Part shown: piece by piece, positions 22,514 to 38,668 of the stretch
Position numbering within the stretch: position 1 is the first letter of the stretch
Layout: each line of letters opens with the position of its first letter
Assembly: GCF_022898935.1 (NCBI RefSeq)
Contig: NZ_JALIRP010000002.1
Location: 558,001 to 622,000, forward strand
Direction: 5' to 3'
DNA from: Paenibacillus mangrovi
Lineage (GTDB): Bacteria; Bacillota; Bacilli; Paenibacillales; Paenibacillaceae
DNA: 64,000 nt
Translations under genes and position numbers: made by a program
The notes under the pieces: model-generated
What the model was told of the DNA's origin: nothing
Database searches by the model: none
What the model saw: only the letters and a program-made list of their open reading frames with translations

Positions 22514-22651
22514 GATCAATATATGGAATACCTCCCTTTAAGTAACAGTTGCGTCGACTAGGTATTAAGCCCCATAATGTAACTCGTGTTGTCTGGCTAT
22601 TTGTTCAGAATACATAACTACGAGCTCAGGTTTTGGGAGGTAATACTAGAA

Positions 22652-23941
22652 ATGAAAAAAATGTTTACAAGTGTATTAATTGCAGCTACGGTTGCTGTGG
22701 CAGCTATTCCGGCCGCATATGCGGATGGTGGAACGAACTCCTTCGTTGATATTGAGAATTCCTATGCAAAGGATGCCATTCAAGACTTGTTTAACAAGGG
22801 TATCGTGACAGGTATGGATAATAAAGGCCACTTTAGCCCTAAAGGAACTTTGACTCGTGCTCAGTTCGTTACGATGATGGTGAAATCATTGGGCTTGAAA
22901 GCTGACGCTACGACATCTTCGTTCACAGATGTAAGCGGATGGTCTCTCCCTTATGTGGAAGCTGCATATCAAGCAGGTATCATTAACGGTGTAGGCAAAG
23001 ACAAGTTTGACCCTAATGCTCCTGTAACAAGAGAAATGTCAGCGACGATTTTGGTGAAATCGCTGGAAACGAAAAGTGATCTTGATGAGCAGGATGCAGA
23101 CCTCACTTTTAAAGATGCAGGCAAAGTTTCAACATGGGCAGCTCCTTTCATTGGCCTTGCACAAAAATATAAGCTAGTCAATGGCTTCCCGGATGGAACA
23201 TTCGATCCAAAAGGAATTTCTAACAGAGAGATGGGCGCAGCTATGGCCTCCAACCTGTTGAAAGCAATTGATGCGGTGACTAATGAAACTCCAACGGCAC
23301 CAGTAATCAGCAATGTCAGCATTAAATCCAGCAATGAACATCCTTCACTAGCAAAGATCGGTGATACGATCACGCTAACATTCACAACGACTGAGCAAGT
23401 TACGAAACTAAGCGGCTTCAAAATTAACGGCAGCAACCCGACTTCTTTTAAATCTGAGGGGTCAGAAAACAATTGGACTAATACTGCAACTTATGTGCTG
23501 GAAGAAACTGATCCTGTTGGTCCGGTAAACTTCCAAATTAATGTGAAGAACGCAGCTGGGCTTTACTCCATTACTACAGAAGCAACGAGTGATGGAAGCT
23601 CTGTAACTGTTCTAGCCGCTCCTGTCATCAGTGATGTAACAATCGTTTCGAGCAACGAAGATCCGACTAAAGCGACTGTCGGTGACACTGTCACGTTGAA
23701 GTTTACAACGGATCAAGAGGTTGCTAAGCTTAGTAACTTTAAAATTAACGGAGGCAATCCTACTTCATTCACTTCTACCGAGCAAGCGAATCATATATGG
23801 GTTAACAAAGCAACTTATGTTATTGATCCTTCGGACCCTACCGGTCCAATGAATTTCCAGATCAATGTAAAAAATTTGGTAGGTTCGTACTCGATCACAA
23901 CCGAAGCAACAACGGATAAGAGTGCTGTAACTGTGTATTAA
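22652..23941 (+). CDS. SLH-domain surface protein with two Ig-like repeats
   Basis: About 429 residues. Signal peptide (KKMFTSVLIAATVAVAAIPAAYA), then three S-layer homology domains over roughly residues 28-205 (FVDIENSYAKDAIQDLFNKG, FTDVSGWSLPYVEAAYQAG, FKDAGKVSTWAAPFIGLAQ) that anchor proteins to pyruvylated cell-wall polymer. The rest is a tandem pair of ~100-residue beta-sandwich-like repeats (each starts PVIS-V-I-SSNE and ends FQINVKN..G.YSITTEAT). The ATG has GGGAGG 10 bases upstream. With a terminator directly behind, it is monocistronic. No catalytic domain is present, so a structural or adhesive surface role is inferred. Confidence 0.92.
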   Translation: MKKMFTSVLIAATVAVAAIPAAYADGGTNSFVDIENSYAKDAIQDLFNKGIVTGMDNKGHFSPKGTLTRAQFVTMMVKSLGLKADATTSSFTDVSGWSLPYVEAAYQAGIINGVGKDKFDPNAPVTREMSATILVKSLETKSDLDEQDADLTFKDAGKVSTWAAPFIGLAQKYKLVNGFPDGTFDPKGISNREMGAAMASNLLKAIDAVTNETPTAPVISNVSIKSSNEHPSLAKIGDTITLTFTTTEQVTKLSGFKINGSNPTSFKSEGSENNWTNTATYVLEETDPVGPVNFQINVKNAAGLYSITTEATSDGSSVTVLAAPVISDVTIVSSNEDPTKATVGDTVTLKFTTDQEVAKLSNFKINGGNPTSFTSTEQANHIWVNKATYVIDPSDPTGPMNFQINVKNLVGSYSITTEATTDKSAVTVY

Positions 23942-24276: not shown

Positions 24277-24317
24277 ATAAAAAATAAGCCGCCTTCCCGA
24301 ATGGAAAGACGGCTCAA
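24277..24317 (-). terminator. Terminator of the ribosyl-compound gene cluster
   Basis: On the minus strand AGCCGTCTTTCC pairs with GGAAGGCGGCT (one mismatch), followed by TTATTTTTTAT. It lies 18 bp after the ribokinase stop and closes the nine-gene cluster. Confidence 0.85.
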
Positions 24318-24334: not shown

Positions 24335-25225
24335 TTACGACAACTCACTAATCGCTGGAATCGAAGGCTGCGCACCTGAACGCGTAACCGCAATGGATGC
24401 AGCCTGCTGGGCCAAATCCACCGCTTCGTCCATTCCTTTACCCGAGCAAATCATGGCGGCCAGCGTGCCCGCAAACGTGTCGCCAGCTGCCGTTGTATCG
24501 ACGACATTCACCTTGCGTCCTTCTTTATGGACATTGCAGGTGCCGTTATAATACGCGACCCCTTTGTCCCCAAGCGTGATCAGCGGATAGCGGATGCCCT
24601 TCGCCCGCAGCAGATCCAGCGCAGCCAAAGCGTCAGCAACGTCATGAATCTCGCGCCCCGTGTAAAACGCAACTTCATGCTCATTCGGTACAAAGTAATC
24701 CAATCCCTGTAGAATATCTTCGTCGATCGGCATCGCTGGAGCAGGATTCAGAAAAAACGGAACCTTGCCTTTCACCAGCCGAACGGCTTCATAAACGGAT
24801 TCGAGCGGAATCTCCAGCTGAAGCAGCACCGCATCGGCCGACAACAGATCTACCTCAAATTGCCGGATATACGCAGGCGTCACCTTCTTATTGGCCCCAC
24901 CGTCGAGAATGATCGCATTATCCCCTTCACAGACGGTAATCACGGCAACACCAGAGGTGGTGTCAGGTTCAATCGCGATAAAATCGGATTTTACGCCATA
25001 GCCGGTCAAGCTTTCAACCAGCGACTTGCCAAACAGATCATCTCCCACTTTACCTAGCAGCCAGGTATCCGTGCCCATTTTGGCGCACGCTACCGCCTGA
25101 TTGGCTCCCTTGCCACCAGATGACAAAAAGAATTTCTCCCCGTGCATTGTTTCTCCTCTATTTGGAATACGGCTAGTCTCCATCACCATATCCATATTTG
25201 CACTGCCTATCACAATAATTTTCAT
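24335..25225 (-). CDS. rbsK: Ribokinase
   Basis: A 296-residue PfkB-family kinase of ribokinase length. The N-terminal substrate-binding motif GSANMDMVMETSRIP and GGKGANQAVA match RbsK. The C-terminal signature DTTAAGDTFAGTLAA contains the anion hole and the catalytic Asp249. It phosphorylates D-ribose to ribose 5-phosphate with ATP in the cytoplasm. It is the last gene of the cluster, directly after two ADP-ribosylglycohydrolase-fold genes, so it probably uses ribose they release. A second ribokinase domain is fused to the LacI regulator of the same cluster. Confidence 0.94.
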   Translation of the reverse strand: MKIIVIGSANMDMVMETSRIPNRGETMHGEKFFLSSGGKGANQAVACAKMGTDTWLLGKVGDDLFGKSLVESLTGYGVKSDFIAIEPDTTSGVAVITVCEGDNAIILDGGANKKVTPAYIRQFEVDLLSADAVLLQLEIPLESVYEAVRLVKGKVPFFLNPAPAMPIDEDILQGLDYFVPNEHEVAFYTGREIHDVADALAALDLLRAKGIRYPLITLGDKGVAYYNGTCNVHKEGRKVNVVDTTAAGDTFAGTLAAMICSGKGMDEAVDLAQQAASIAVTRSGAQPSIPAISELS

Positions 25226-25254
25226 ATATATCCTCGATTCAGATTTTTTGGATG

Positions 25255-27363
25255 TTATACTCGCTCTGTCAACCGAATATCGCGGAAATACGTTCTTGCT
25301 GCGCCCAAGGTGGTGACGCCGTACATACCGTAAGCAAATGTGTCGTCTTGATGCTTGATCAATTCTTCGCCATCGATTGCGAGCGTAATTGTGGAACCCT
25401 GCGCCGTTACCCTCACATCATACTCGCGATCCAGCTCCCAGACGAACTTGCTCCCAGCCAGCTTTTTATAACCGAAATTGTTGATATACAGGGACACCTC
25501 ACCGTCTTCGTCCAGGCCGGCATGATACCCGCGCATCGCGCCCTGCGCCCGGACGGCAACCAAATGCGAGAAACCATACTGCGGATTGACCCGGATCGAT
25601 ACCGAATAATCTTTGGCAAAATAATTCCCTGTATAAGCCTCAGCCGGATCGGCCGTCATCAGATACATCGCATCCTGCTCCAGCGACCATGCCCCATGAT
25701 TATGCGAAAATGGCGTTACGCATCCAAAATTGATCTGCTGTTTAGCAAAATCGATATGGTATTCCGATGGGCCGCTGATGCGGAACTCATCAATAAAAAT
25801 GCGCCCCATGCTTTTGAACTTGGCCGGCGAATAGGCTTCGAGCACGATCCCGACTTCATCGATCAGTTCGCCTTCGGCATCCGGTATCGTAAATTCGACA
25901 TGCAACCATTCCTTGTCAACGAGCTTGATATATCCCTGTACCAGCTCCTTTTTGCTTGTAGCGAGCCGGATATACGGAGCAATGCCCATCGCTTCGTTGC
26001 CGGACCATTGATCCAGGTAAACCTGCATAGAGACCTTTTGTCCCGGATATGCTTTGGGTGCAAACGTCGGCGAATAACGTTCGTCATTAAATTCATCCCT
26101 TGTGTAAAAGGGTTTGTAATACACTTTGGCATTCTGAGGGCGTGCCATCCGGTCAAAAACGATCTCAAGCGAGCCCTTGCCCTGATAGGCCATCTCCTCG
26201 GAATGCTTCACCAGGCAGAGAAATGGATCCGAAACCCGGATATTATGCGTTGAGCCCGGCAGTTCAAAATCAAAGTAGATCTCATCTTCCTTATAACTGT
26301 CCGTCAACCACTGCGGGCATGGCTCCTTTGCAATGCGGTATCCGAGAATGGAAAGCTCTTTGGCGTATGTCGGGATATCGAGAATGTTCAAAAAACCAGA
26401 AATGCCCGACATAACGATCGAATCATTAATCGGCTGGCGGTAATGGTCCGCAATTCCGTCCAGACCGCACGCTACGCCCAGAACCGTTCCTACGTTCCCG
26501 GCATTGCAGTCCGTATCCCAACTGCACATTGTCGCAATTTCAACAGTCCGGTTGAAATCACCTTGCCCATAAATCATAGCAAGCACGCAAACACCTGCGT
26601 TCGGAATGATATGGCATACGCCTGTATATTTGTCGTAGCCCCAATCGCGCTCCAGCATTTCCCGGCAGGCACGAAAATCATCCGGATGTTCTTTATGGAA
26701 ATCCAGCACGGCATGCGCCACTTTCGAATACGTAGATTCCGCCGGAATTTGCGCTAGTCCTTCCGCAATGATCTCTTTGATATTACTTGTTTCAAATGCT
26801 TTGGATATCGCCGCACAGAAAAACCGTGCCCCCAGCACACCTTCCCCGTCATGGGAAACCCGGGCTGCCGCCTCGCCCAGATCAGCCGCCTTTTTCGGGT
26901 TCCCAGGGGTGATCAGTCCCCATGTATCGATAAAAATCTGACCTCCGATCTGCTCTGCTACGATTAATCCGTTTTGCGGAATGGAGCCGGACTGCGGCGC
27001 TGGAATGCCATGCTTCAAATTGATGTATACGGTATGTTCCGTACTTACGCCATATCCGCCCCACCAGAACATCCCGATGCCTTCCCGGGAATAGTTAAGC
27101 CAAGCACGCGCCACATCATTTGGCGTGATGTCTCGGTCTTTCGCATCATCATACAACGCTCTCAGAAAATAATACGGTCCATTGGCGTCATCATCCGCCG
27201 CAAAATTTTTGAACGGTTTGACATAGTCCTTAATATCGCCGTACGTTTGATATATTCTTTCATACGTCCAGTGAGTCGGTTCCACCGGAGCCCCCAGACG
27301 GATGCCCACATTCATACCCAAATAACCGGCGTACACTTTTTCTACATAATTAGAAGGAATCAT
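25255..27363 (-). CDS. ADP-ribosylglycohydrolase-family enzyme with C-terminal beta-sandwich region
   Basis: 702 residues. The N-terminal ~350 residues match the all-helical ADP-ribosylglycohydrolase (DraG/ARH) fold: acidic metal motif ADDD at 56-59 and SWDTDCNAGN with Asp283/Asp285, the paired sites of the dinuclear metal centre. From about residue 390 the sequence turns beta-rich and ends in a LamG/3-keto-disaccharide-hydrolase-like module (YFAKDYSVSIRVNPQYGFSH, LAGSKFVWELDREYDVRVTA, AYGMYGVTTLGAARTYFRDI). There is no signal peptide, so it acts in the cytoplasm. It starts 5 bases after the sister enzyme and is followed by ribokinase. Cleavage of an imported riboside is inferred; a protein ADP-ribose substrate is less likely here. 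Confidence 0.85.
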   Translation of the reverse strand: MIPSNYVEKVYAGYLGMNVGIRLGAPVEPTHWTYERIYQTYGDIKDYVKPFKNFAADDDANGPYYFLRALYDDAKDRDITPNDVARAWLNYSREGIGMFWWGGYGVSTEHTVYINLKHGIPAPQSGSIPQNGLIVAEQIGGQIFIDTWGLITPGNPKKAADLGEAAARVSHDGEGVLGARFFCAAISKAFETSNIKEIIAEGLAQIPAESTYSKVAHAVLDFHKEHPDDFRACREMLERDWGYDKYTGVCHIIPNAGVCVLAMIYGQGDFNRTVEIATMCSWDTDCNAGNVGTVLGVACGLDGIADHYRQPINDSIVMSGISGFLNILDIPTYAKELSILGYRIAKEPCPQWLTDSYKEDEIYFDFELPGSTHNIRVSDPFLCLVKHSEEMAYQGKGSLEIVFDRMARPQNAKVYYKPFYTRDEFNDERYSPTFAPKAYPGQKVSMQVYLDQWSGNEAMGIAPYIRLATSKKELVQGYIKLVDKEWLHVEFTIPDAEGELIDEVGIVLEAYSPAKFKSMGRIFIDEFRISGPSEYHIDFAKQQINFGCVTPFSHNHGAWSLEQDAMYLMTADPAEAYTGNYFAKDYSVSIRVNPQYGFSHLVAVRAQGAMRGYHAGLDEDGEVSLYINNFGYKKLAGSKFVWELDREYDVRVTAQGSTITLAIDGEELIKHQDDTFAYGMYGVTTLGAARTYFRDIRLTERV

Positions 27364-27368
27364 CGCTG

Positions 27369-28541
27369 TTATGCACCACCTAATTGAATATTGTTCATAT
27401 ATTCCCTACGTGCTTCCTGTTCTTTCAGATCCTTACGGATCATAGAGGCGGCCGTTTCCGTAAAAATGCCGCACTGCTTGTCGATCTCCTGCTTGTTGAT
27501 TTCTTCAATGGCCCGGATTTCATCGGCCGGTATCGCCTGTACGCCATGCATCGCGCCCAGAATCGCGCCGATCATGACCCCGATGGAATCGGTATCCCTT
27601 CCCGAACTGACGCCATCCTTAACCGCCTCCGTCAAATCTCCTTCATGCAATACGATATAGGCTAACGCCAGCGGCAGCTCTTCAATCGCAAACAGCCGGC
27701 TTGGCGTATAGTGATTCGAAGGGATGCCGACCTTGTCGATACTGCGGTTGACGTCATCTCCCATGGGAGAATATTTCTTGATCATTTCATGGAAATACCG
27801 TACGACCGTATCGCGGTCCTGTTTCATAGGACGAAGAACTTTGGCGGCCGCGCATATATCGGTTATCGCCTCTTTCGTGCCATCTTTCGCATATACCAGC
27901 GCCGTCTCCACGATCTCCTCCACCGTGACTCCCGGCTCGAACGCTTTGGCCACACAGCAGGCCATGACCGCTGCCGCTTCCAGCCCATAGCTGACCTGAT
28001 GTCCGGATGCGAATAAAATCGCTTCGTCATAGGCCGCTTTCGGATTGCAGGCATTGACGATGCCCACCGGTGCAATATACATCGCCGCCCCGCAGTTGAC
28101 CATATTGCCGTATCCGCCTTCGCGCGGTTCGCAGTTCGCCAGTACATGCCGGGTAAATATATGTTTTTCGGGATAAAACAGCCTGTCTATAATGAGGGCT
28201 TCCTTGCCGAACTCTGGAATATAACGCGGCCGGAAGGCAATTTCCTTCACGAATTCATTAGCCAGATCATATGCGTCCAAATGGCGCTTTTCCGTATCGT
28301 ATACCTTCATGAGTGCCAGCGTCATGAGCGTATCGTCGGTGACGATGCCAAACCCTCTCATACGCCCGAGTCTCGTTGTTTCCGGAAGTTCCGACTTCCA
28401 CCACCTCTGCTGCGTGGTTTCTACTCTGCCATATTTCTCTTGAATGTCCTTGTATGTCAGCTTCTCAACAACCGCGCCCATCGCATCGCCATATGCGGTT
28501 CCGAAAACGACGCCTTTGACCCGGTCTGCAAAAGAAATCAC
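27369..28541 (-). CDS. ADP-ribosylglycohydrolase-family enzyme
   Basis: 390 residues, a single ARH-type domain. GTAYGDAMGA at 14-23, the metal motif TDDT at 68-71 and SGRDTDSIG with Asp316/Asp318 supply the two halves of the dinuclear metal site. The start is GTG with AAAGGAG 10 bases upstream. It differs strongly from the adjoining 702-residue enzyme and lacks its C-terminal extension, so the two probably act on different linkages or successive steps. E. coli YegU is a comparable case next to a PfkB kinase (YegV) and a nucleoside transporter (YegT). The actual substrate is not known. Confidence 0.88.
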   Translation of the reverse strand: MISFADRVKGVVFGTAYGDAMGAVVEKLTYKDIQEKYGRVETTQQRWWKSELPETTRLGRMRGFGIVTDDTLMTLALMKVYDTEKRHLDAYDLANEFVKEIAFRPRYIPEFGKEALIIDRLFYPEKHIFTRHVLANCEPREGGYGNMVNCGAAMYIAPVGIVNACNPKAAYDEAILFASGHQVSYGLEAAAVMACCVAKAFEPGVTVEEIVETALVYAKDGTKEAITDICAAAKVLRPMKQDRDTVVRYFHEMIKKYSPMGDDVNRSIDKVGIPSNHYTPSRLFAIEELPLALAYIVLHEGDLTEAVKDGVSSGRDTDSIGVMIGAILGAMHGVQAIPADEIRAIEEINKQEIDKQCGIFTETAASMIRKDLKEQEARREYMNNIQLGGA

Positions 28542-28582
28542 CTGGCTTTCACTCCTTTATACGAAAAATGCAGAAATTTGGC

Positions 28583-28618
28583 GGGGGCTTTATATGGCTC
28601 TTCGCCAGCCTAAGCCCC
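28583..28618 (-). other. Intercistronic hairpin between lipoprotein and hydrolase genes
   Basis: GGGGCTT pairs with AAGCCCC with an inner GGC/GCC stem, in the 93-bp gap between the binding-lipoprotein stop and the next gene. No T run follows, so it may stabilise the highly expressed lipoprotein message or attenuate read-through, as in other binding-protein operons. Confidence 0.4.
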
Positions 28619-28634
28619 GCGCCTGACAGTTCAA

Positions 28635-30098
28635 TTATTTGATGATTTCATTCGCTTTGGCGGTCAAATCACCACCGCCCGCAGCGTTCCAGTCCTGAAC
28701 GAATTGGTCAAACTTGTCGATGGATATTTTGCCTGTCACCACATTCGCAGCAAATTCTTTGTATACGGACATTGCCGCGTCAGATTTGGCCTGCATATCT
28801 TCCGGAATAATAAATGCGTTATCCTTGGTCGATTTGGACGCTACCAGGTCCAGCGATTTCGTAGCCGCTTCGGACAGGAATGGCGTCGATGGGTCGAATT
28901 CATGGTCCGGCTTGAAGCTTACGTTGTTGCCTACGAAACGTGCATACCACTCGGCGTATTTATCCGTAAATTTGATTTTGTCGTTTTCAATGTTGTAATG
29001 CTCGCCTTCAATCCCCAGCTTCTCCAGCATTTGTCCTTTTGGACTGGCCAGAAATTCCAAGACGGCAAAGGCCATGTCTTTGTTCTTGGACACGCTGGAA
29101 ATTGCGATGCCGCGGCTTTCTTTGCTGACATCGATCGGAAGGTAACCTTCACCTACACCTTTAGCCGGCGGCAGCGGCATCACGGTAGCGTCTTTTCCGT
29201 TCTGCGAAACCGATTTGCTGTTATACATGTCGATAACTTTGCCCTGCGTTCCAGCGATCACGGCCGCTTGTCCGTCATAAAACGCTTTTTCCTTCGTATC
29301 CCATTTCTTGGTCAGAAACTCCGGATCAAGCAGCCCTTCTTTATACAGCTTCGCATAAAATTCCAATTTGTCTTTTTCGAATTTCGTCGTTCTGCCAAAT
29401 ACGTATTTGCCGTCATCTCCCTTAAGCCAGGTTGAGGTGAGGCCAAACGCCTGGGCGAATACGGCATCCAACTCGTCCAGATCCCCAGGTACCGTGTAAG
29501 CAAACTTGGCGCCGTTTTTCTCTTTCGCTTCTTTGAAGAAATTGTAGTAGTTATCAATGCTCGGATTTTCCAGAAGCGTCTTGCCAGAAGACGTTTTAAT
29601 GAAAAAGTCCTGGCGTACGACCGGTACCTTGGTTGTTGTCGGCGACAACCATACCAGGTACGGATAATTTTTGGTACGCTCCTGATTGTAAGGGTCCATC
29701 GCCGCCTTCACATAAGTCGATTTTTCAATGTACGGCGTCAGATCCTCCAAAATCTTCTGTGTGATAGCAAACTGGTAATCGCCGCCCTGGAAGTAGATCA
29801 AATCCGGAATTGTGCCGCTTTGCAGCAGGAGTCCCAATTTCTCGGAGTACGTACCGCTTTGCACGGGAACGAATTCCAGCTTTACGTTTTTGCCTTCCGC
29901 CTTCATCCCCTCTTCAACGGCTTTGATCCATGGATCGTCCGCAGTCATATCTTTATAAACAATGCTGATTGTAACCGGTTCCCCATTTCCCGAATCTGAG
30001 CTTCCCGGCGTCTCTGCCGCGGTTTCTTTTCCTCCTGAACCGCAAGCCGTCGTAAGAATCATAAGTACCGCCATAACCATGACCAACATTTTTTTCAC
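28635..30098 (-). CDS. Solute-binding lipoprotein of the ribosyl-compound importer
   Basis: 487 residues. The signal peptide ends in lipobox LTTAC (Cys19) and a Gly/Ser/Glu linker. Mature features match CUT1-type binding proteins: VTISIVYKDMTADDPWIKAV, LLLQSGTIPDLIYFQGGDYQ, VSKNKDMAFAVLEFLASPKG. The start is GTG with GGGGAGG 8 bases upstream. Immediately upstream are two permeases and downstream two ARH-fold hydrolases and ribokinase. The ligand is inferred to be a ribose-containing conjugate, but nothing in the binding site can be read directly. Confidence 0.92.
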   Translation of the reverse strand: MKKMLVMVMAVLMILTTACGSGGKETAAETPGSSDSGNGEPVTISIVYKDMTADDPWIKAVEEGMKAEGKNVKLEFVPVQSGTYSEKLGLLLQSGTIPDLIYFQGGDYQFAITQKILEDLTPYIEKSTYVKAAMDPYNQERTKNYPYLVWLSPTTTKVPVVRQDFFIKTSSGKTLLENPSIDNYYNFFKEAKEKNGAKFAYTVPGDLDELDAVFAQAFGLTSTWLKGDDGKYVFGRTTKFEKDKLEFYAKLYKEGLLDPEFLTKKWDTKEKAFYDGQAAVIAGTQGKVIDMYNSKSVSQNGKDATVMPLPPAKGVGEGYLPIDVSKESRGIAISSVSKNKDMAFAVLEFLASPKGQMLEKLGIEGEHYNIENDKIKFTDKYAEWYARFVGNNVSFKPDHEFDPSTPFLSEAATKSLDLVASKSTKDNAFIIPEDMQAKSDAAMSVYKEFAANVVTGKISIDKFDQFVQDWNAAGGGDLTAKANEIIK

Positions 30099-30131
30099 GA
30101 CTTCAACCTCCCCTTTTTAATAGCCTATCTA

Positions 30132-31016
30132 TTATTCTTTGACGCCGCCTTCCATCACTCCGCTGGTATAGTACTTGAGAATAATGGGATACAGCAAAAG
30201 AATCGGAACCATGGCGACCACGATGGTAGCCGCTTTTAATGCATTGAAATCCAGCTGCGCCACATTGCTGTTCTTGAGCAGCTCTGTAATCCCCACAAGG
30301 GTTGAGGTGTCCCGCTCGACGACAAATTGTCTTAGCAGCACCTGCAGCACCGTCTTGTTTGGACTGGACAGGAAAATGCTCGATTTGAAAAACTCATTCC
30401 ATTTGGCAATGGCATAAAACATGCCGATGGTAAGCAGCGGTATCCGGGACAAGGGCAGCACGATTCGGACAAATACGCGCAAATGCCCTGCTCCGTCGAT
30501 TTTGGCGGCTTCCATTAATGATTCCGGAATTTCCTCGATAAAACGCATCATAATGACGAGATAAAATACGTTGATCATCCGGTACAAGACCATAGACCAC
30601 AGGCTGTCGAGCAGATGCAGATCCTTCATAACGAAATATTCCTGCACGTAACCGGGTTCAAAAATCATAATGATGATCAGAAAAATCATGATCGGCGTTT
30701 TGCCGACTAGATTTTTTCGGGTCAGCACATAGGCGGTAATCGTAGTAAGAAACAGACTGAAGCAGGTGCCGACGATCGTAATAAACAGCGAATTGCCAAT
30801 GGCTTGTCCGACAATCGGGTTGCTCAGCACCACCTGGAAGTTAATCAGCGAGAATCCTTTTGGAATGACGCCAAGTCCGGTCAACTCATGCACCTTGTCA
30901 GGATGGGAAAAGGCTCTGGCGAAAATATTGATAACCGGGATAAACATCACCAGCGTAATCAAACTGAGCACCAGTCCGATAGCCAGCTTGGGCAGCGTGA
31001 ATTTTTTACCTACCAC
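30132..31016 (-). CDS. ABC transporter permease, LplC type
   Basis: 294 residues with six membrane segments, EAA loop LMEAAKIDGAGHLRVFVRIVLPLS, and the LplC-type ending YPIILKYYTSGVMEGGVKE. GTG start with GGGAGG 7 bases upstream. It pairs with the LplB-type permease 13 bp upstream and takes substrate from the lipoprotein encoded 33 bp downstream. Confidence 0.92.
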   Translation of the reverse strand: MVGKKFTLPKLAIGLVLSLITLVMFIPVINIFARAFSHPDKVHELTGLGVIPKGFSLINFQVVLSNPIVGQAIGNSLFITIVGTCFSLFLTTITAYVLTRKNLVGKTPIMIFLIIIMIFEPGYVQEYFVMKDLHLLDSLWSMVLYRMINVFYLVIMMRFIEEIPESLMEAAKIDGAGHLRVFVRIVLPLSRIPLLTIGMFYAIAKWNEFFKSSIFLSSPNKTVLQVLLRQFVVERDTSTLVGITELLKNSNVAQLDFNALKAATIVVAMVPILLLYPIILKYYTSGVMEGGVKE

Positions 31017-31029
31017 TTGATTACCTCCC

Positions 31030-31959
31030 CTACCAAGCGCCTTTGCCGGTCATTTTTTTCGATAAGAAATGAGTGGACAGAACCAAAATCACGCCGATGA
31101 CGCTCTTGAACAAATTCGCGGCGGTAGCCAAGGAATATTGGCCGTTCAAGAGACCCATGCGATACACGAAGGTATCGATAATATCGATGTGACTGGCGAC
31201 GGAATCGTTCGTAAAGTTCAGGATTTGATCCAGTCCCGCGTTCATGATAAAGCCGATATTCAAGATAAAAATCGTTACCATTGGAATAAACAGATGCGGC
31301 AGAACAATCCGAGTCACGATATGCCAGCGTCCGGCGCCATCCACGCGCGCCGCTTCATACAGCGTAGGGCTGATGCCAATGATCGCCGCCAAATAAATGA
31401 TGGAATCCCATCCCATGCTGCGCCATGCTTCACTCGCAACAAGCACCCAGCGGATGCTGCTCTTCTCTGTCAGAAAATCATGAGGCTGGAATCCGAAAAA
31501 CGTCAGAATTTGGTTAATGGCTCCGGTCGAAGGCGACAAAAATTCATACCATACACCGGCGATGACAACCCAGGAAAGAAAGTGTGGAAGATAGGATACG
31601 ACCTGAACCGTTTTCCGGAAACCGCCGTTCATAAACTCATTCAGAGCCAGGGCGAATAAAATCGGAAGCGGGAACAGCAAAAACATCTTCATCGCGCTGA
31701 TGACCAGCGTATTCACGATAACCTGGGTGAAAATAGGCGTATTAAACAGCTCCTTGAAATGCTTGAAGCCAACAAAAGCATCGTCACCAATAATACGGTA
31801 ATCGTAAAAAGCAAGCTTCATCTCATAAATCGGCCAAATATGAAAAAGGGTATAAAATACGATGGCCGGCAGCAGCATCAGATACAGGATTTTATCGGCC
31901 CGGATTTGCTTGAGCTTGGAAGGCCTTGGGTCAGCGGGCAGCGTTCTCACCCTGCTCAT
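31030..31959 (-). CDS. ABC transporter permease, LplB type
   Basis: 309 residues, CUT1 LplB group. First membrane segment LMLLPAIVFYTLFHIWPIYEM, EAA loop LYEAARVDGAGRWHIVTRIVLPHL and FIMNAGLDQILNF near the end are family features. The ATG overlaps the DUF4387 stop by 4 bases, tying the transporter translationally to the DUF4387/AtuA pair. No ATPase is encoded in the cluster. Confidence 0.92.
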   Translation of the reverse strand: MSRVRTLPADPRPSKLKQIRADKILYLMLLPAIVFYTLFHIWPIYEMKLAFYDYRIIGDDAFVGFKHFKELFNTPIFTQVIVNTLVISAMKMFLLFPLPILFALALNEFMNGGFRKTVQVVSYLPHFLSWVVIAGVWYEFLSPSTGAINQILTFFGFQPHDFLTEKSSIRWVLVASEAWRSMGWDSIIYLAAIIGISPTLYEAARVDGAGRWHIVTRIVLPHLFIPMVTIFILNIGFIMNAGLDQILNFTNDSVASHIDIIDTFVYRMGLLNGQYSLATAANLFKSVIGVILVLSTHFLSKKMTGKGAW

Positions 31960-32267
31960 ACCTCCACCTCCAGCTCCATTAGCGGCGCATGCTGCTGCGC
32001 TCCATAAACGTCGCGGTCCAGGAATGAACCGGAAGACACGCCACGGGCAAAGGTAACTTTAAACCCCAAGGCTTGATCGAAAAAAACGATTTGCGTAATC
32101 TCCTCAGGCGCAATATTGTACAGCTCGGAAATCGTTTCTTTGTTGATGACCCCGGACTGTTTGATCTTGTTGTACGTTACGGCATTGTCAAACAGGGTAT
32201 CTACCGTGATTTCGAAAGGGCCGCTGTTTTTGCTGCGCAGCACGGCGGCAGCATCGTATAACTTCAT
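31956..32267 (-). CDS. DUF4387 family protein
   Basis: A 103-residue soluble protein starting KLYDAAAVLRSKNSGPFEIT, with FDNAVTYNKIKQSG and GSFLDRDVYGAQQHAPLMEL, the recognisable pattern of DUF4387. Members normally follow an AtuA-like (DUF1446) gene, as here with a 4-base overlap, and in some proteins the two are fused, so they probably form one enzyme. The function is unknown. Its place between AtuA and the transporter is conserved logic for uptake and processing of an acid or conjugate, but that is inference. Confidence 0.85.
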   Translation of the reverse strand: MKLYDAAAVLRSKNSGPFEITVDTLFDNAVTYNKIKQSGVINKETISELYNIAPEEITQIVFFDQALGFKVTFARGVSSGSFLDRDVYGAQQHAPLMELEVEV

Positions 32268-33640
32268 CTCGATCCCCCCTGAATGAATTCGCAGGTGAAC
32301 ATTTCAAGCGCATCACGGGTTTCCATCAAATGATAAACGGAAAATTCATAGACGGCACCAAACGGCACATCGCTCGGGGCAAACGGAAAAGCGAGATTTC
32401 CCGCCGTTGCTTTCCGTCCCTCGTAACCGTAATGCAGGAAGGTGGAACGGGCCGAGCTGCAGATCATATCGGCCAGCTCCTGGGTTTTCGCCACGACATC
32501 GATCACGATTCCTAGCTCATGGCCTGGCGTCGGTGTAGGTTCAAGCTGTCCCATGACGCCGTTTAAGCCGTAATTGATAAAACGAATCTGGTAATCGTTT
32601 TCAGAAATATCATCGAAATACTCTTGGACCTGCTGCTTGACGAGTTCCTCCACTTCTTCGATTCTCGTAATCAGCAGAGGATCGCGGACGCCGGCGACGA
32701 CAAACGTGCGGTAAGCGGTTCTCGCCGCCCCTTCGAGCTTGATTTTATAGATCGGCGTTTCATGGACTCTACTGCCCCGAACTTCGACACTGCCGTCTCC
32801 GTGTTCCGTGAATGTGCATTTCTCTAGATCGAGTATCAATCCCGGTCCATGCAGCAAATACGGATGATCCTTTTCGTAGAACGTGTGCGCCGCTACCGAG
32901 ATGGTCGTACATTTCCGCTTGTCGTTCAGCGGCTTGACGATAAAGGAATCTTTCTTCAAAATGCCGAGCATAGAGTCCTTGGTCGTTCCGGGATCGGCAC
33001 ATAACGCTGCACATTCGAGGATTTTCCCGAGATGATAGGATAAGGCCGTATCAAAACCGTTATGGATGGCTGCCGCCGCAAACGGCGACGGATCATAGGC
33101 CCGTCCGCAAATAATGATGTCAGCCCCAGCCTCCAGCGCTTTGACGATCGGCTCATGGCCCATTTGAGCCACAATGCGGGTTGTCGCTTCAAGCCTTTCC
33201 TCCGTAAGTGGCTTAACCGTCATATTCAGCGGCTCGCATTGGCCGGCCGCCAGACTGGCCTTCACCGCCTCATGGGGAATATCCGCCCAGATGATCGCGA
33301 TGTTCAAATCGCTAAGCCCATGCTCTTTCACGATTTCCATCACGATCGACTGCGTCCATTCCACATGAATCCGGGCGCCGCTGCCGCCAGCTGAGCCGAT
33401 AATTACCGGGATCCCGGCAGCGGCTCCGGCCGTAATCATCAGCTCTAGATCTTTTTTGCAGGCCTGTCTACTGACGATGGCCGTCCCTGCACCCAGCTTA
33501 TGCGGTCCGGCATCCGTCGATCCGGCATCAACGACTATGGCGTCCGGTTTATGCTCCATGCCTTTCTGAAATGAAGCTTTCGGAAATCCATACCCGAGCA
33601 TGCCGCACGGTGCTAAAACTTTGTATTCCTCCATGTTCAT
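32264..33640 (-). CDS. AtuA-like (DUF1446) family protein
   Basis: About 458 residues. Conserved blocks of the acyclic-terpene-utilisation AtuA family: GYGFPKASFQKGM, DAIVVDAGSTDAGPHKLG, GSAGGSGARIH, ADIIICGRAYDPSPFAAAAI, KILECAALCADPG and GRKATAGNLAFPFAPSD. The ATG at 33640 has GGGAGG 5 bases upstream and is preferred to the earlier in-frame ATG. AtuA was defined in citronellol/geraniol breakdown in Pseudomonas, yet the family is much wider and biochemically unclear. Here it is coupled to DUF4387 inside a ribose-related cluster, so a terpene role is unlikely. Confidence 0.85.
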   Translation of the reverse strand: MNMEEYKVLAPCGMLGYGFPKASFQKGMEHKPDAIVVDAGSTDAGPHKLGAGTAIVSRQACKKDLELMITAGAAAGIPVIIGSAGGSGARIHVEWTQSIVMEIVKEHGLSDLNIAIIWADIPHEAVKASLAAGQCEPLNMTVKPLTEERLEATTRIVAQMGHEPIVKALEAGADIIICGRAYDPSPFAAAAIHNGFDTALSYHLGKILECAALCADPGTTKDSMLGILKKDSFIVKPLNDKRKCTTISVAAHTFYEKDHPYLLHGPGLILDLEKCTFTEHGDGSVEVRGSRVHETPIYKIKLEGAARTAYRTFVVAGVRDPLLITRIEEVEELVKQQVQEYFDDISENDYQIRFINYGLNGVMGQLEPTPTPGHELGIVIDVVAKTQELADMICSSARSTFLHYGYEGRKATAGNLAFPFAPSDVPFGAVYEFSVYHLMETRDALEMFTCEFIQGGSR

Positions 33641-33661
33641 CTGTGCCTCCCTATTATGCAT

Positions 33662-35623
33662 TTACATGTATATCCGCATCGTATCTTGATCGGGCAACGA
33701 CGGCTGCGCTCCTTCCCTGCTGACGGTAATGCCTGCCGCCAGGGAACCGTAACGGATGGCTTCGATCAAGTCCTTGCCTTCCGCCAACGCCACAATCAGT
33801 CCGCTGATAAAGGAATCGCTCGCCGCCGTTGTATCCACCGCCTGAAAATCCGCTGCATCGAAGTACTGCTTCGTATCCGCATTGACAAGCAGGCAGCCTT
33901 TTTCACCCAGCGTCACAATGACGTTTTGATAGTTCATGTTCAGCAGTTGATACGCTTTTTCCTCAATGTTTTGCCCGCCCGGTAGCATCAACGCCAGCTC
34001 AGTTTCATTGGGAACGATCAGGAAACCTTCCTCAAAGTTGTCGAAATTGAAATTATGCGCAGGTGCGGGTTTGATGATGAGTTTGACGTTTTTGCGTTTG
34101 CAGATACTCGCCACATAATGGATCGTGTCCGCCGGAATCTCCATCTGCACCAGACAGTACGACACCTCGTCAAAAATCCATTCCACGCTTTGCACTTGCT
34201 CCCGGCTTAATCTGGAATTGGCCCCGGGGTTCACGACGATGTTGTTTTCCCCTTTGTCGGACACGTGGATATAGGCATTCCCCGTCGGCAGCAGCTCGTC
34301 GAAGATAACCCCGCTTGCATCCACGCCGTTTTTGATCAAGCTATTGTACAGCTCCCGGCCGTACAGGTCGTTTCCAACCCTGCCGATCATGTACACCTTT
34401 CCCCCCAGCTTGCCCGCGCCGACCGCCTGATTCGCCCCCTTACCGCCGGCAGCGTTTTTGACATCCTGAGCCAATATCGTCTCCCCTACCTTCGGGATAT
34501 GCGGTACCCGCATGATGATGTCCATATTCAAGCTGCCTACAATGGAGATTTTCTCTTTTGGCGTCAGATCGATATGAAGCGGTGCAGCCACGCTGTCACG
34601 AAAAATGATCGAAGGCTGGAACACCTGCTTCTTTCCCTTTTCCTGGTTCCGGATTTGGTCAAGCAAGGCCATCACCGCCGCAAAACCGCTTTTATAAAAC
34701 GGGAACTGCACCGAGCTGAGCGTCGGAATGACTAGCTTGCAGATATCCGAATCGCCAAAACCGATAACCGAAAGCGCCTCCGGAATCCGAATCGCTTGCT
34801 CGGCCGCCGCCGCATAGACACCGCATGCGATTACGTCGCTGCCGGTTGCGATCGCTGTCGCCCCCATGGACAAAAGCTGCTTGGCACCTTCGTATCCACC
34901 TGACTTCTCGCTGCCGGATGCGCTTTCAAAAATAAGACTTTTATCGAAGTTGATGTGGTTTTCATACAGCGCCTTTTTATACCCTTCGAACTTGGCAAGC
35001 TCGGGCGCATGATCTAAAGGACCGCCAATAAAACCGATCCGCTCGTGCCCTTGCTCGGCCAAACACTGAACAGCCATATACATCCCCTGCTCAAAATCGA
35101 GCACCAGATGCTGCGCGTCCGGCCCACCTTCTTGATGATCCACAACCACGATCGGCCAATCCTCTCCGGCCAAGGCCATCGGCGTTTCCTGTTTACGCCC
35201 CGAACCCGAATTCGGCACAAACACGATACCTTCCGCATTGCGGTCCCGGAGCATTTTAAAATAACGTTTCTCCTTTGACTCGAGACCATCCGTATGGCAT
35301 ACAATCAGACTCATTTCTTCTTGATATGCCGCAGCTTCAGCTCCCCGGATCCACTCCTTACCGGCAACCTCGCCCGATGAAATCACAAGTCCGATCGTGT
35401 CGCTTTTCGCCCCCATCCGCTTGACGACTTTACGGTACGGGATATAGTTGTAGTCGCTGATCACCTTGTTAATCTTGGCCCTCGTCTCTTCGCTGATATC
35501 CTGATCCTTGTTGTTCAGCACTTTGGAAACGGTTGCAATTGACACCCCTGCAAGTCTCGCTATATCTTTGATCGTTACGGTGCTTGAACCCGAAGATTCT
35601 GAAGGACTATACCATTTATCCAT
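33662..35623 (-). CDS. Fusion of a LacI-family regulator with a ribokinase domain
   Basis: 653 residues. Residues ~15-62 form a LacI helix-turn-helix (TVTIKDIARLAGVSIATVSK), ~72-350 the periplasmic-binding-like sensor (RIGFIGGP, LSVIGFGDSDICKLVIPTLS), and ~358-653 a complete PfkB ribokinase (IVGSLNMDIIMRVP, AAGGKGANQAVGAG, VIVTLGEKG). The catalytic signature reads DTTAASDSF: Asp603 is kept but the glycine before it in ribokinase (AAGDTF) is Ser here. It may repress the cluster and sense or phosphorylate ribose in one molecule. It lies 21 bp upstream of the AtuA-like gene in the same direction, so it is probably cotranscribed and autoregulated. Confidence 0.93.
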   Translation of the reverse strand: MDKWYSPSESSGSSTVTIKDIARLAGVSIATVSKVLNNKDQDISEETRAKINKVISDYNYIPYRKVVKRMGAKSDTIGLVISSGEVAGKEWIRGAEAAAYQEEMSLIVCHTDGLESKEKRYFKMLRDRNAEGIVFVPNSGSGRKQETPMALAGEDWPIVVVDHQEGGPDAQHLVLDFEQGMYMAVQCLAEQGHERIGFIGGPLDHAPELAKFEGYKKALYENHINFDKSLIFESASGSEKSGGYEGAKQLLSMGATAIATGSDVIACGVYAAAAEQAIRIPEALSVIGFGDSDICKLVIPTLSSVQFPFYKSGFAAVMALLDQIRNQEKGKKQVFQPSIIFRDSVAAPLHIDLTPKEKISIVGSLNMDIIMRVPHIPKVGETILAQDVKNAAGGKGANQAVGAGKLGGKVYMIGRVGNDLYGRELYNSLIKNGVDASGVIFDELLPTGNAYIHVSDKGENNIVVNPGANSRLSREQVQSVEWIFDEVSYCLVQMEIPADTIHYVASICKRKNVKLIIKPAPAHNFNFDNFEEGFLIVPNETELALMLPGGQNIEEKAYQLLNMNYQNVIVTLGEKGCLLVNADTKQYFDAADFQAVDTTAASDSFISGLIVALAEGKDLIEAIRYGSLAAGITVSREGAQPSLPDQDTMRIYM

Positions 35624-36571: not shown

Positions 36572-38662
36572 TCATTGGAGCATGGACCGTATTCCGTATT
36601 CCGTCTTCTGGCGCTTGAGTATAACTACCCCATATGCTTGAAGCTCAATGGACTGATGAGCAGCTACATCACCCAGTACATATGTGTACTCATGCCCATC
36701 CAGCTGAACTATTTGGTGACGGTCAGTAAAATTGAGCACGAATACGAAATCCTGTACGCCATCTGTACGAAGTTGAACAGTTACACCTTGTGGCAGCTCC
36801 GTATCAAGAACTCGCGAGATTCCTTCCTGTGCAGCCAGACTACGGTAGAAGTCATGATAAAATGGTTTTTCAGCCCGAGCTGCAAGATAATAGGCCCTTC
36901 CTTTGCCGAGACGGTTCACGGTTAAAGCAGGCCGGCCAGCATAGAAATCATGTCCATATTCGGCAATCGCCTCTGCGGTCTCCAGATGGATAAGATCGCA
37001 CATTTCGCGGACTTCGAACTCCCCCTTCAAACCTGATATGGAGCCACTTGTTATCCGGATGGTATTGGCATCACGGTCATGAAGCCCCTCCAGTTCCTCC
37101 GACCATATGCCAAGCGCTTTGCGAAGCGGTCCCGGAAATCCGCCAAGGAAACATAAGTCGTTTTCATCGACGATGCTAGACCAATAGGTGGACACGAATA
37201 TTCCGCCGTTTTCGATAAAACGTTCTATCCGCTCTCCCACGCCAGGGCGGACCATATAAAGCATCGGAGCGATAAGAAGCTTATAAGGCGAAAAATCACA
37301 GTCCATATCAATCACATTTACAGGAATACCCATGTCCCAGAACGGCTTATAGTGCATTCTTACCGTTTCTTCATAATTCACGCCGATATTGCGCGGACCT
37401 TGAGCCTGCTTAACGGCCCATCGGTTCTCAGTGTCAAAAATAATGGCAACCTGCGGGTGAACCGTCGTTCCGACAATGTCATCCAGCTGCGCCAGCACTT
37501 GACCCACCTCTGATACGTCCCGGAAAACACGGGTATGCTCATGTCCGGCATGATCGATCACTGCGCCATGGAATTTTTCGCTAGACCCCCTGCTTTTCCG
37601 CCACTGAAAATATTGCACCGAATCCGATCCATGCGCAACGGCCTGCATGGAAGAAAGCATGTGCATACCAGGTCGTTTCAGTTTGCTGACCGGCTGCCAG
37701 TTAGTCTGGCTAGGCGTGCTTTCCATTAGTAAGAAAGGTTTTCCGCCCTTGATGGAACGGAACATGTCATGGTTAAGCCCGACCCATGCCGCCAGGTCAT
37801 GTTCGTCTTTAGTCCCGTGCCAGGTTGGATATGAATCCCAGCAAACGAAGTCGATCACATCGGCGAACTTCCAATAATTGAGACCTTCGAAGGCTTCCAT
37901 AAAATTGGTCGTCACGGGAAGATGAGGGGCCAGTTCTTTAAGCGGCTTAATTTCATGCTTGTAGAAATCAAGGGTTTGATCGGTCACGAAGCGTCTCCAA
38001 TCCAGCACAAGCCCGTGAACTTGCGTTTCACCATGTGGAGCCGGAGATTCAATCTGCAGCCAATCCGTATATGTATGACTCCAGAATGTTGTCCACCATG
38101 CATGGTTCAGTGCATCAAGTGAACCGTATTTCTGCTTGAGCCAGTTCCGGAATGCGTTCTGGCAATACGCGCAGTGGCATTCTCCCCCGAATTCATTGGA
38201 GATATGCCAACCGATCACAGCAGGATGGGCACCGTAGCGTTCTGCCAGCTTTCGGTTGATGATCGCTGTTTTTTCGCGGTAAACCGGCGAGGTAAAGCAG
38301 TGATTATGCCGGAATCCATGCAAATTACGGACACGGTTGGCCTCCACACGTAGTACCTCCGGATATTTGGAGGACATCCAAGCCGGTCGTGCCCCGCTCG
38401 GTGTGGCAAGGAAAGCATAGATGCCGTTCTCTGCAAAGCTGTCCAGCAGCCGATCCATCCATTCGAACGTAAATACACCTTCTTCCGGTTCTAAACTGGA
38501 CCAGGAGAAAATTCCTACAGACATGACATTACAGACGGCATGTTTCATTAATCGGATATCTTCATGCAGTATGTCCGGATATTGCAGCCACTGTTCCGGA
38601 TTATAGTCCGCACCATGAAGCATATGAGCAATTTTTGTAACCGGTAGGTGAGAAGTCGCCAT
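36572..38662 (-). CDS. Beta-galactosidase, glycoside hydrolase family 42
   Basis: 696 residues, standard GH42 length. The N-terminal TIM barrel has HGADYNPEQW at 16-25. Acid/base Glu157 is in HISNEFGG and nucleophile Glu314 in LLMESTPSQTNW. Cys122, Cys162, Cys164 and Cys167 match the zinc cluster of characterised GH42 enzymes. A trimerisation domain (YKLLIAPMLYMVRPGVGERI) and a small C-terminal beta domain (QDFVFVLNFTDRHQ) follow. There is no signal peptide, so it hydrolyses imported galactosides. It lies 6 bp after araB as the last gene of the operon. GH42 enzymes often act on galacto-oligosaccharides from plant galactan; an alpha-L-arabinosidic side activity is also known. Confidence 0.95.
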   Translation of the reverse strand: MATSHLPVTKIAHMLHGADYNPEQWLQYPDILHEDIRLMKHAVCNVMSVGIFSWSSLEPEEGVFTFEWMDRLLDSFAENGIYAFLATPSGARPAWMSSKYPEVLRVEANRVRNLHGFRHNHCFTSPVYREKTAIINRKLAERYGAHPAVIGWHISNEFGGECHCAYCQNAFRNWLKQKYGSLDALNHAWWTTFWSHTYTDWLQIESPAPHGETQVHGLVLDWRRFVTDQTLDFYKHEIKPLKELAPHLPVTTNFMEAFEGLNYWKFADVIDFVCWDSYPTWHGTKDEHDLAAWVGLNHDMFRSIKGGKPFLLMESTPSQTNWQPVSKLKRPGMHMLSSMQAVAHGSDSVQYFQWRKSRGSSEKFHGAVIDHAGHEHTRVFRDVSEVGQVLAQLDDIVGTTVHPQVAIIFDTENRWAVKQAQGPRNIGVNYEETVRMHYKPFWDMGIPVNVIDMDCDFSPYKLLIAPMLYMVRPGVGERIERFIENGGIFVSTYWSSIVDENDLCFLGGFPGPLRKALGIWSEELEGLHDRDANTIRITSGSISGLKGEFEVREMCDLIHLETAEAIAEYGHDFYAGRPALTVNRLGKGRAYYLAARAEKPFYHDFYRSLAAQEGISRVLDTELPQGVTVQLRTDGVQDFVFVLNFTDRHQIVQLDGHEYTYVLGDVAAHQSIELQAYGVVILKRQKTEYGIRSMLQ

Positions 38663-38668
38663 ATTGAA

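Follow-up and report, generated by a model that had tools for sequence, protein, structure and literature searches.

The window analysed here, a stretch of 64,000 nucleotides of Paenibacillus mangrovi, holds a cluster of nine genes in which an ABC importer, two ARH-fold hydrolases and a ribokinase stand together with a gene pair annotated as AtuA and DUF4387. This raises the question which compound is taken up and cleaved by the encoded proteins. We consider it fairly probable that the operon serves the breakdown of a compound in which ribose is joined to a citramalate-type (beta-hydroxy) acid.

Organisation of the gene cluster

ORF analysis confirmed nine minus-strand genes at 24335-35623, separated by short gaps or 4-base overlaps as described in the initial annotation. 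Pfam/NCBIfam searches assigned them to a LacI+Peripla_BP+PfkB fusion, AtuA, DUF4387, two BPD_transp_1 permeases, SBP_bac_1, two ADP_ribosyl_GH proteins and a ribokinase. The features are:

33662..35623, minus strand: LacI-type regulator fused to a ribokinase-like domain, 653 aa (Pfam LacI, Peripla_BP_3, PfkB; TIGR02152 304.4 bits)
32264..33661, minus strand: CmlA-like protein, likely citramalate lyase large subunit, annotated AtuA, DUF1446 (PDB 9erq_A, E 9.9e-141)
31956..32267, minus strand: CmlB-like small subunit, DUF4387 (PF14330 127.6 bits; PDB 9erq_B, E 5.4e-24)
31030..31959, minus strand: ABC importer permease (BPD_transp_1)
30132..31016, minus strand: ABC importer permease (BPD_transp_1)
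28635..30098, minus strand: solute-binding lipoprotein of the importer (SBP_bac_1; lipobox judged by eye)
28580..28623, minus strand: RNA stem-loop in the 93-bp gap 3' of the binding-protein gene (predicted fold)
27369..28541, minus strand: ARH-fold hydrolase, 390 aa, ARH390 (PF03747 154.9 bits)
25255..27363, minus strand: ARH-fold hydrolase with C-terminal beta-sandwich domains, 702 aa, ARH702 (PF03747 173 bits)
24335..25225, minus strand: ribokinase RbsK (TIGR02152 317.7 bits)
24285..24316, minus strand: intrinsic-terminator-like hairpin 3' of the last gene (14 pairs, 7 G-C, T-run)

The gap between the LacI-RbsK fusion and AtuA is 0 bp, the AtuA/DUF4387 and DUF4387/permease junctions overlap by 4 bases, and the remaining intergenic gaps measure 13, 33, 93, 5 and 29 bp in cluster order. 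A terminator had been proposed only after the last gene. The hairpin at 24316-24285 is indeed the strongest terminator-like site in the scanned stretch, but weaker minus-strand sites are also present within the cluster, and such sites overall are hardly above shuffles (21 vs mean 17.1, sd 3.8). The RNA of the 93-bp gap is predicted to form an 11-pair outer stem in a 106-nt fold (-31.9 kcal/mol), which alone is not significant (z -1.5; 19 of 200 shuffles equally good).

The two ARH-fold hydrolases

ARH390 and ARH702 both scored far above the curated PF03747 cut-off of 26.2 bits. Asp-rich metal motifs have an established role in ARH proteins. ARH390, whose solved relatives are MJ1187, DraG and ARH3, displays TDDT (68-71) and DTD (316-318), and in ARH702 the motifs DDD (57-59) and DTD (283-285) are invariant across 38 rows. 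ARH702 has Ala and Cys at positions that are Thr in ARH3. In the ARH702 structure model (pLDDT 92.0), residues 3-343 resembled MJ1187 (Z 21.9) as well as ARH3 and DraG (Z about 20-21), and residues 537-702 resembled CBM66 (Z 23.5, rmsd 1.7), a module that binds fructans. The model thus gives ARH702 the helical ARH fold, and both proteins have the two Asp-rich motifs. To our knowledge, the functionally characterised ARH enzymes act on ADP-ribose rather than on simple ribosides. That the two proteins are non-redundant is plausible, given a second ARH gene in 54 of the 56 loci with a close ARH702 relative.

The AtuA/DUF4387 pair resembles citramalate lyase

The AtuA name points to terpene degradation, and an Atu system would be expected to lie close to genes for geranyl-CoA carboxylase, a dehydrogenase and a hydratase. 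None of these was found among the nine genes or the profiled neighbours of relatives, and this function was rejected. Instead, both proteins are homologous to the two subunits of citramalate lyase CmlA/CmlB (PDB 9erq, 9evf; citramalate lyase-ADP-pyruvate complex; identity taken from PDB molecule names and title), with both subunits encoded by adjacent genes. The window CmlA showed 51.5% identical aa over 439 residues, and its model (pLDDT 87.8) had the same fold as 9evf over 443 aligned residues (Z 51.0, rmsd 2.3). The pair is better named CmlA/CmlB, and alignment and model suggest a homolog likely working like citramalate lyase.

Methylaspartate ammonia-lyase marks the known citramalate setting. 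Using a search profile whose scores lean to ARH-linked proteins because it was built from 18 ARH-linked rows, we found its gene within 12 kb of 50 of the 71 CmlA relatives at 490-650 bits (one of the 71, G472, is the genome of one such row) and of 0 of the 26 below 400 bits. The 21 other mid-scoring proteins comprised 8 with the gene elsewhere in the genome and 13 without it among the matches listed. Neither of the two CmlA proteins above 800 bits, the window's among them, lies near it, and the window's genome gave no strong match (best E 1.5e-5) in a list complete for all but weak matches. Linkage to the methylaspartate pathway is common, not universal, in the CmlA family; since the window pair does not show it, we describe the pair as a likely functional homolog with predicted activity.

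In the CmlA tree, the solved enzyme groups with the methylaspartate-ammonia-lyase-linked set, weakly supported with no starred branch there, whereas the window pair is accompanied by importer, ARH genes and ribokinase. The tree label 'noMAL' includes L233, whose genome has methylaspartate ammonia-lyase on another contig. Because the ARH-linked CmlA proteins form their own clade and share 46-52% identity with the solved enzyme (L129 39%), their specificity may have shifted; among the 93 residues invariant in the 18 ARH-linked proteins, the solved enzyme has a different residue at 8, and 2 fall outside the part of it that aligns. A second clade holds the CmlA of L129; among its other members, L242 carries two ARH genes next to CmlA, and the 10 kb read for L239 contain none.

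Conservation in related genomes

A close ARH702 relative (at least 55% identity) was detected in 36 of 296 order-level genomes, 34 of which also encode DUF4387. The other two, G098 and G057, have in that gene run a CitE-type lyase together with an ADP-forming acyl-CoA ligase. Importer, ARH390 and ARH702 occur together in the window and in 33 of 40 fetched DUF4387 neighbourhoods, three of these 33 being damaged by frameshifts or gaps. The proposed single import-and-cleavage unit, for which a neighbourhood search had been suggested as a check, thus stood up: its parts are kept together, and conservation of the unit extends across Paenibacillaceae, Bacillaceae and clostridial lineages.

Eighty named loci were fetched via ARH702, comprising 56 close relatives and 24 more distant paralogs. 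Bit thresholds were set by us at 700 against the window for ARH702, 200 for CmlA and binding protein, 100 for CitE and RbsK, and 150/100 for the second ARH gene. Gene presence was scored by tblastn in the 40 loci and in the 80 loci by an ORF picker, which at times took antisense frames. The 56 close loci carry a second ARH gene in 54 cases and RbsK in 44; CmlA is present in 49, a CitE-type lyase in 5 and neither in 2. One of these two loci is L130, whose genome encodes CmlA and CmlB next to an ARH gene at another site. A chance neighbourhood was ruled out, because none of the 24 paralog loci has CmlA or a CitE-type gene. CmlA was likewise absent from 18 further order-level ARH702-paralog loci (some genomes shared with the 80). 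A scan of the phylum matched ARH702 in 39 of 398 genomes, 8 over most of its length and the rest in the ARH domain only; among the 16 neighbourhoods fetched, only L093 and L094 have CmlA. Some clusters (L094, L043, L151) carry additional esterases, so the acid may be ester-linked.

Replacement of the lyase and nature of the acid

CitDEF and CitE-type citramalyl-CoA/malyl-CoA lyases perform the same kind of C-C cleavage as CmlA/CmlB, but belong to another protein family (HpcH/HpaI) and are CoA- or carrier-dependent. In the replaced loci the CitE partners are a CoA ligase, CoA-transferase or CitF: L148 and L208 combine CitE with CoA-transferase III, L182 with a ligase, L197 with CitF and CoA-transferase III, and L149 with CitF, CitC and CitX/CitG. 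DUF4387 was not found in the genomes of L148, L149, L182 and L208. Starred branches force the five CitE loci to five separate places of the ARH tree, which argues that different lyases for one acid type were swapped into the same setting. The ARH, ribokinase and CmlA trees were built by a quick method and have long branches (L197, L147, L148, L129), and the position of L129 is unsure, the ARH tree grouping it with paralogs despite 720 bits. The initial annotation had left the aglycone to AtuA/DUF4387; homology to citramalate lyase and the five CitE-type replacements narrow it to a citramalate-type hydroxy acid.

The same unit might handle a different beta-hydroxy acid (3-hydroxy-3-methylglutarate, malate or citrate, for instance), with shifted lyase specificity. 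The CmlA family also occurs in other acid settings, with CsiD and an FAD oxidoreductase in L060 and with MmgE/PrpD and malic enzyme in L072, and CitE-type and CitF modules equally fit citrate or malate. The CitE-like proteins have citE as their best-scoring profile, that of L110 is closest in the PDB to malyl-CoA lyase, and in L149 CitE, CitF and citrate lyase ligase all exceed their cut-offs. The L149 lyase genes follow the ARH genes at a distance of 333 bp and could be a plain citrate lyase placed by chance. However, malate and citrate reach central metabolism without such a lyase, and the main ARH-linked CmlA proteins share 46-52% of their residues with the citramalate enzyme, whereas the window CmlA is only ~34% identical to the CsiD-group CmlA. 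We regard another acid as unlikely, if worth keeping in view.

Importer, ribokinases and nature of the sugar

A binding protein and two permeases without their own ATPase characterise the importer, which we take to be of the LplABC/CUT1 subfamily. No ATPase gene was found within the nine-gene cluster; seven TOBE_2-bearing frames elsewhere in the genome are candidates. The solved chains nearest to the lipoprotein, all weak matches, are AlgQ1/AlgQ2, followed by an arabino-oligosaccharide-binding protein and others.

Both kinase domains of the window exceed the TIGR02152 equivalog cut-off of 299.65 bits (RbsK 317.7, fusion 304.4), although another ribokinase is encoded elsewhere in the genome. 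The fusion kinase has AASD in place of the GAGD motif, which is found in six fusion ORFs of relatives (four genomes). Of ten cluster kinases tested, eight were above the cut-off and two slightly below. They stem from several lineages; as the tree contains just eight kinases from outside both close clusters and fusions, it gives only a rough count of recruitments. These results bear out the idea of ribokinase as the outlet for ribose. They also speak against a sugar other than ribose, by which ARH702 and ARH390 would cut another pentofuranoside or furanose oligosaccharide and the ribokinase-like enzymes would phosphorylate that sugar. This improbable alternative draws on the oligosaccharide binders nearest to the importer, the CBM66-like domain of ARH702, the sulfatase, alpha-amylase-family protein and GFO/IDH protein near ARH702 paralogs, and the nine loci with four ARH genes.

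A nucleoside or ADP-ribose fragment, also considered initially, is very improbable: ARH membership, ribokinase and a HAD-type phosphatase at a single locus (L208) would agree with cleavage of ADP-ribosyl or nucleoside bonds beside a lyase serving an unrelated acid, but the profiled neighbours include no nucleobase gene, the binding protein is distantly nearest to alginate/oligosaccharide binders, and 54 of 56 loci either keep the lyase or have another of the same chemical type in its place.

Proposed pathway and comparison with known systems

For a ribose-citramalate-type conjugate, the lipoprotein and two permeases would import the compound, driven by an ATPase encoded elsewhere. ARH390 and ARH702, with their ARH profile and motifs, would hydrolyse ribosyl bonds in the cytoplasm, the bonds cut and the order of the two steps being putative. 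RbsK would feed the pentose phosphate pathway with ribose 5-phosphate made from ribose, and CmlA/CmlB would cleave the freed acid, most likely citramalate, to pyruvate and acetate. The LacI-RbsK fusion may sense the sugar or sugar phosphate. In some relatives a CoA-dependent lyase of the CitE type, supplied by a CoA ligase or CoA-transferase, would take over the acid step, or else a CitF-containing lyase. Many Bacillota have a conserved operon that probably imports a conjugate of ribose and a small acid (e.g. citramalate), frees the ribose and converts the acid to pyruvate and acetate.

E. coli yegTUV likewise joins a transporter, an ARH-fold protein and a PfkB kinase, but has a nucleoside transporter, a single ARH gene and no acid lyase. 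We know of no ribose-citramalate compound. Bacteroides rus reportedly shares a ribokinase and a ribose-freeing hydrolase with the window cluster, and differs in TonB/SusD uptake and a nucleoside hydrolase. The BT2804 locus, as listed in PMC10434189, includes no citramalate-type lyase. Literature searches found nothing on DUF4387, citramalate lyase together with CmlA, ADP-ribosylglycohydrolase with ribose utilization, or the 9erq structure; nothing among the matches listed joined ADP-ribosylglycohydrolase with citramalate, citrate lyase or AtuA, and combined citramalate and ribofuranosyl terms gave nothing relevant in titles and abstract starts.

Tentatively, and as a quite possible extension, ribosylated citramalate (or ribosyl-oligosaccharides bearing citramalate) may be an unrecognised common compound class with a dedicated Bacillota pathway, in which ARH proteins would act as small-molecule ribosidases and no fewer than three modules that split citramalate by different chemistry (CmlA/CmlB, CoA-activated CitE, a CitF-containing lyase) would have been swapped into the same operon. 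If true, ARH-fold enzymes would acquire a role in carbohydrate catabolism and the AtuA/DUF4387 family a testable function outside glutamate fermentation. The repeated lyase swaps would then point to an undiscovered metabolite, common enough for a dedicated uptake and degradation route to have been selected in many bacterial families.

Operon layout
As the initial annotation proposed, nine minus-strand genes lie at 24335-35623, separated by intergenic distances of 0-93 bp or joined by 4-base overlaps. Pfam and NCBIfam upheld their families: a LacI-RbsK fusion, AtuA and DUF4387 (CmlA- and CmlB-like), two permeases, a binding lipoprotein, ARH-fold hydrolases of 390 and 702 aa (ARH390, ARH702) and RbsK. 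The strongest terminator-like hairpin in the scanned stretch lies 3' of the last gene; a stem of 11 pairs in the 93-bp gap 3' of the lipoprotein gene did not differ significantly from shuffles. Neighbouring genes are:

22586-23941, plus strand, S-layer-homology protein, just past the operon's terminator
36572-40339, upstream of the operon, GH42 beta-galactosidase gene and an adjoining kinase gene, presumably a ribulokinase

AtuA/DUF4387 and citramalate lyase
Sequence searches of the PDB revealed one strong relative for each subunit: citramalate lyase subunit A (cmlA; 9erq chain A, E 9.9e-141) for the large and DUF4387/citramalate lyase subunit B (cmlB; 9erq chain B, E 5.4e-24) for the small subunit. 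The large subunit shares 51.5% identity with the solved enzyme over 439 residues, and 83 of the 93 residues invariant across 18 ARH-linked CmlA proteins are common to that enzyme. Its AlphaFold model (pLDDT 87.8) matched 9evf with Z 51.0 and rmsd 2.3 over 443 residues, the remaining rows of the structure search reaching Z 9.0 at most. ADP in 9evf, entitled 'Citramalate lyase - ADP - pyruvate complex', suggests a reaction tied to ATP or ADP.

A DUF1446 gene of no assigned function adjoining methylaspartate ammonia-lyase was noted in a passage of an older paper (PMC4682846). Among 398 phylum genomes, 50 of the 71 CmlA relatives at 490-650 bits lay within 12 kb of methylaspartate ammonia-lyase (for the other 21, it was elsewhere in the genome in 8 and without a strong match in 13), as did none of the 26 below 400 bits. 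Neither relative above 800 bits (window, genome G559) lay within 12 kb of it. ARH genes are likewise linked to a second clade of CmlA (L129, whose contig is as long as that of L094).

Conservation of the cluster
DUF4387 was found in 40 of 296 genomes of the order, at 41 places, one being the window; the 40 other neighbourhoods were fetched. By tblastn, importer, ARH390 and ARH702 adjoin AtuA/DUF4387 in 33 of these 40, with frameshifts or gaps in L048, L067 and L069. Seven neighbourhoods (L034, L052, L060, L066, L068, L071, L072) gave no tblastn match to ARH.

At L034:8826-11545 a CmlA/CmlB relative (55% identical to the solved enzyme) adjoins a YdjC-like protein and a two-component pair, with weak matches to the importer permeases further along and ARH genes absent; this set perhaps serves a second kind of citramalate conjugate. 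At L060:4761-9978 the run that includes a distant AtuA/DUF4387 pair also encodes CsiD, of the glutarate hydroxylase family, together with an FAD oxidoreductase and a transporter ATPase that has an oligo_HPY region; L066 and L068 resemble it by gene sizes only. In L071 and L072 malic-enzyme-like proteins adjoin AtuA/DUF4387, and L072 further encodes MmgE/PrpD together with an FAD-linked oxidase and an Fe-S/CCG protein, which points to another hydroxy-acid pathway.

ARH702 at 55% identity or more occurred in 36 of the 296 genomes (the G226 copy split into frames), 34 of them with DUF4387. The other two, G098 and G057, have the same importer, ARH390 and ARH702 and lack AtuA/DUF4387; their runs add genes for a CitE-like lyase and an ADP-forming acyl-CoA ligase, along with a ribokinase and a LacI-type regulator. 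The CitE-like lyase of L109 scored 206.6 bits with TIGR01588, below the citE cut-off of 443.4, and the L110 ribokinase 355.8 bits. CmlA was not found in 18 order loci of lower-identity ARH702 relatives. The window ARH702 is 75-81% identical to relatives in other families of the order and 55-58% to those detected within its genus and family, which suggests horizontal transfer of the cluster.

Scanning GTDB genomes with an ARH702 alignment yielded 415 relatives. The counts below cover the best 80 and, as all of these were found via ARH702, describe its nearest relatives, all Bacillota. Several loci end at contig ends. Our own thresholds separated 56 close relatives (including Bacillaceae, Caryophanaceae, Paenibacillaceae, Clostridiaceae, Thermotaleaceae, Fusibacteraceae and Vallitaleaceae) from 24 paralogs. 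The close loci have CmlA in 49 cases, CitE in 5 and neither in 2 (L130, L131), with a window-type binding protein in 53, a second ARH gene in 54 and RbsK in 44. None of CmlA, CitE, the window-type binding protein or a second ARH gene was found in the 24 paralog loci; RbsK was found in 8. Four ARH-family genes each are present in L136, L142, L145, L168, L178, L186, L187, L201 and L206, so the compound may contain several ribosyl bonds.

Replacement of the lyase
At five loci CitE stands in for CmlA, with the following genes:

L148 and L208: CitE and a family III CoA-transferase
L149: CitE (445.1 bits, barely above the citE cut-off), CitF (759.2), citrate lyase ligase (347.3), CitX/CitG
L197: CitE-like protein (matched to that of L110 only), CitF (568.1), family III CoA-transferase
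L182 (taken as the same genome as L109): CitE and an ADP-forming ligase

They occupy five places on the ARH702 tree, where the starred branches force five changes. DUF4387 was not found in the four CitE-locus genomes searched (L148, L149, L182, L208). L130 looks like a split cluster, because CmlA, CmlB and an ARH gene form a small group of their own in its genome (L216); CitE and CitF also occur there as a pair, on a different contig (L217). L131 sits on a 9-kb contig of a genome in which DUF4387 was absent and CitF appeared only as contig-end fragments and one weak match. Our chief reason for placing a citramalate-type acid in the substrate is that different enzymes of the same chemistry take one another's place next to an unchanged set of importer and ARH genes; that a different acid takes the place of citramalate itself we consider rather unlikely.

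Sugar, hydrolases and regulation
Eight of 10 cluster kinases, picked from 15 listed, exceeded the ribokinase cut-off, the other two falling barely under it (297.2 and 289.8 bits); a copy elsewhere in the window's genome scored 340.8 bits. The cluster ribokinases form several lineages; on a tree that includes few kinases from outside the clusters, the cluster label requires at least four changes. The L208 kinase pairs with the 340.8-bit copy of the window's genome. L208 also has a HAD-type phosphatase gene between ARH702 and RbsK. Both ARH390 and ARH702 retain the Asp motifs. The C-terminal domain that follows the ARH domain of ARH702 resembles CBM66 (Z 23.5), and the nearly equal match to galactocerebrosidase (Z 22.6) makes furanose binding only a hint. 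For the binding protein the closest relatives, all of them distant, are AlgQ1/AlgQ2 and a protein that binds arabino-oligosaccharides. A sugar other than ribose seems quite improbable to us. Further hydrolases are encoded in some clusters: L094 has an alpha/beta hydrolase, L043 and L207 have a 568-aa AXE1-like protein and L151 has an esterase. An ester may therefore be part of the natural compound.

Of the 56 close loci, 31 carry an upstream relative of the L042 regulator, which is labelled GntR-type from its sequence rather than a profile. The LacI-RbsK fusion is found in the window and four other genomes (L047, L049/L194, L067/L202, L070), and broken in L069/L179. The GAGD kinase motif of those four genomes reads AASD in the window (33662-35623), where the kinase domain may thus only sense.

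Proposed pathway
The genes present, their linkage and homology, the two modelled folds and the lyase replacement were observed; beside these we set a scheme that we regard, as a whole, as probable. The importer would take up a ribose-citramalate conjugate, which ARH390 and ARH702 would hydrolyse; ribose would then be converted to ribose 5-phosphate, and citramalate to pyruvate and acetate.
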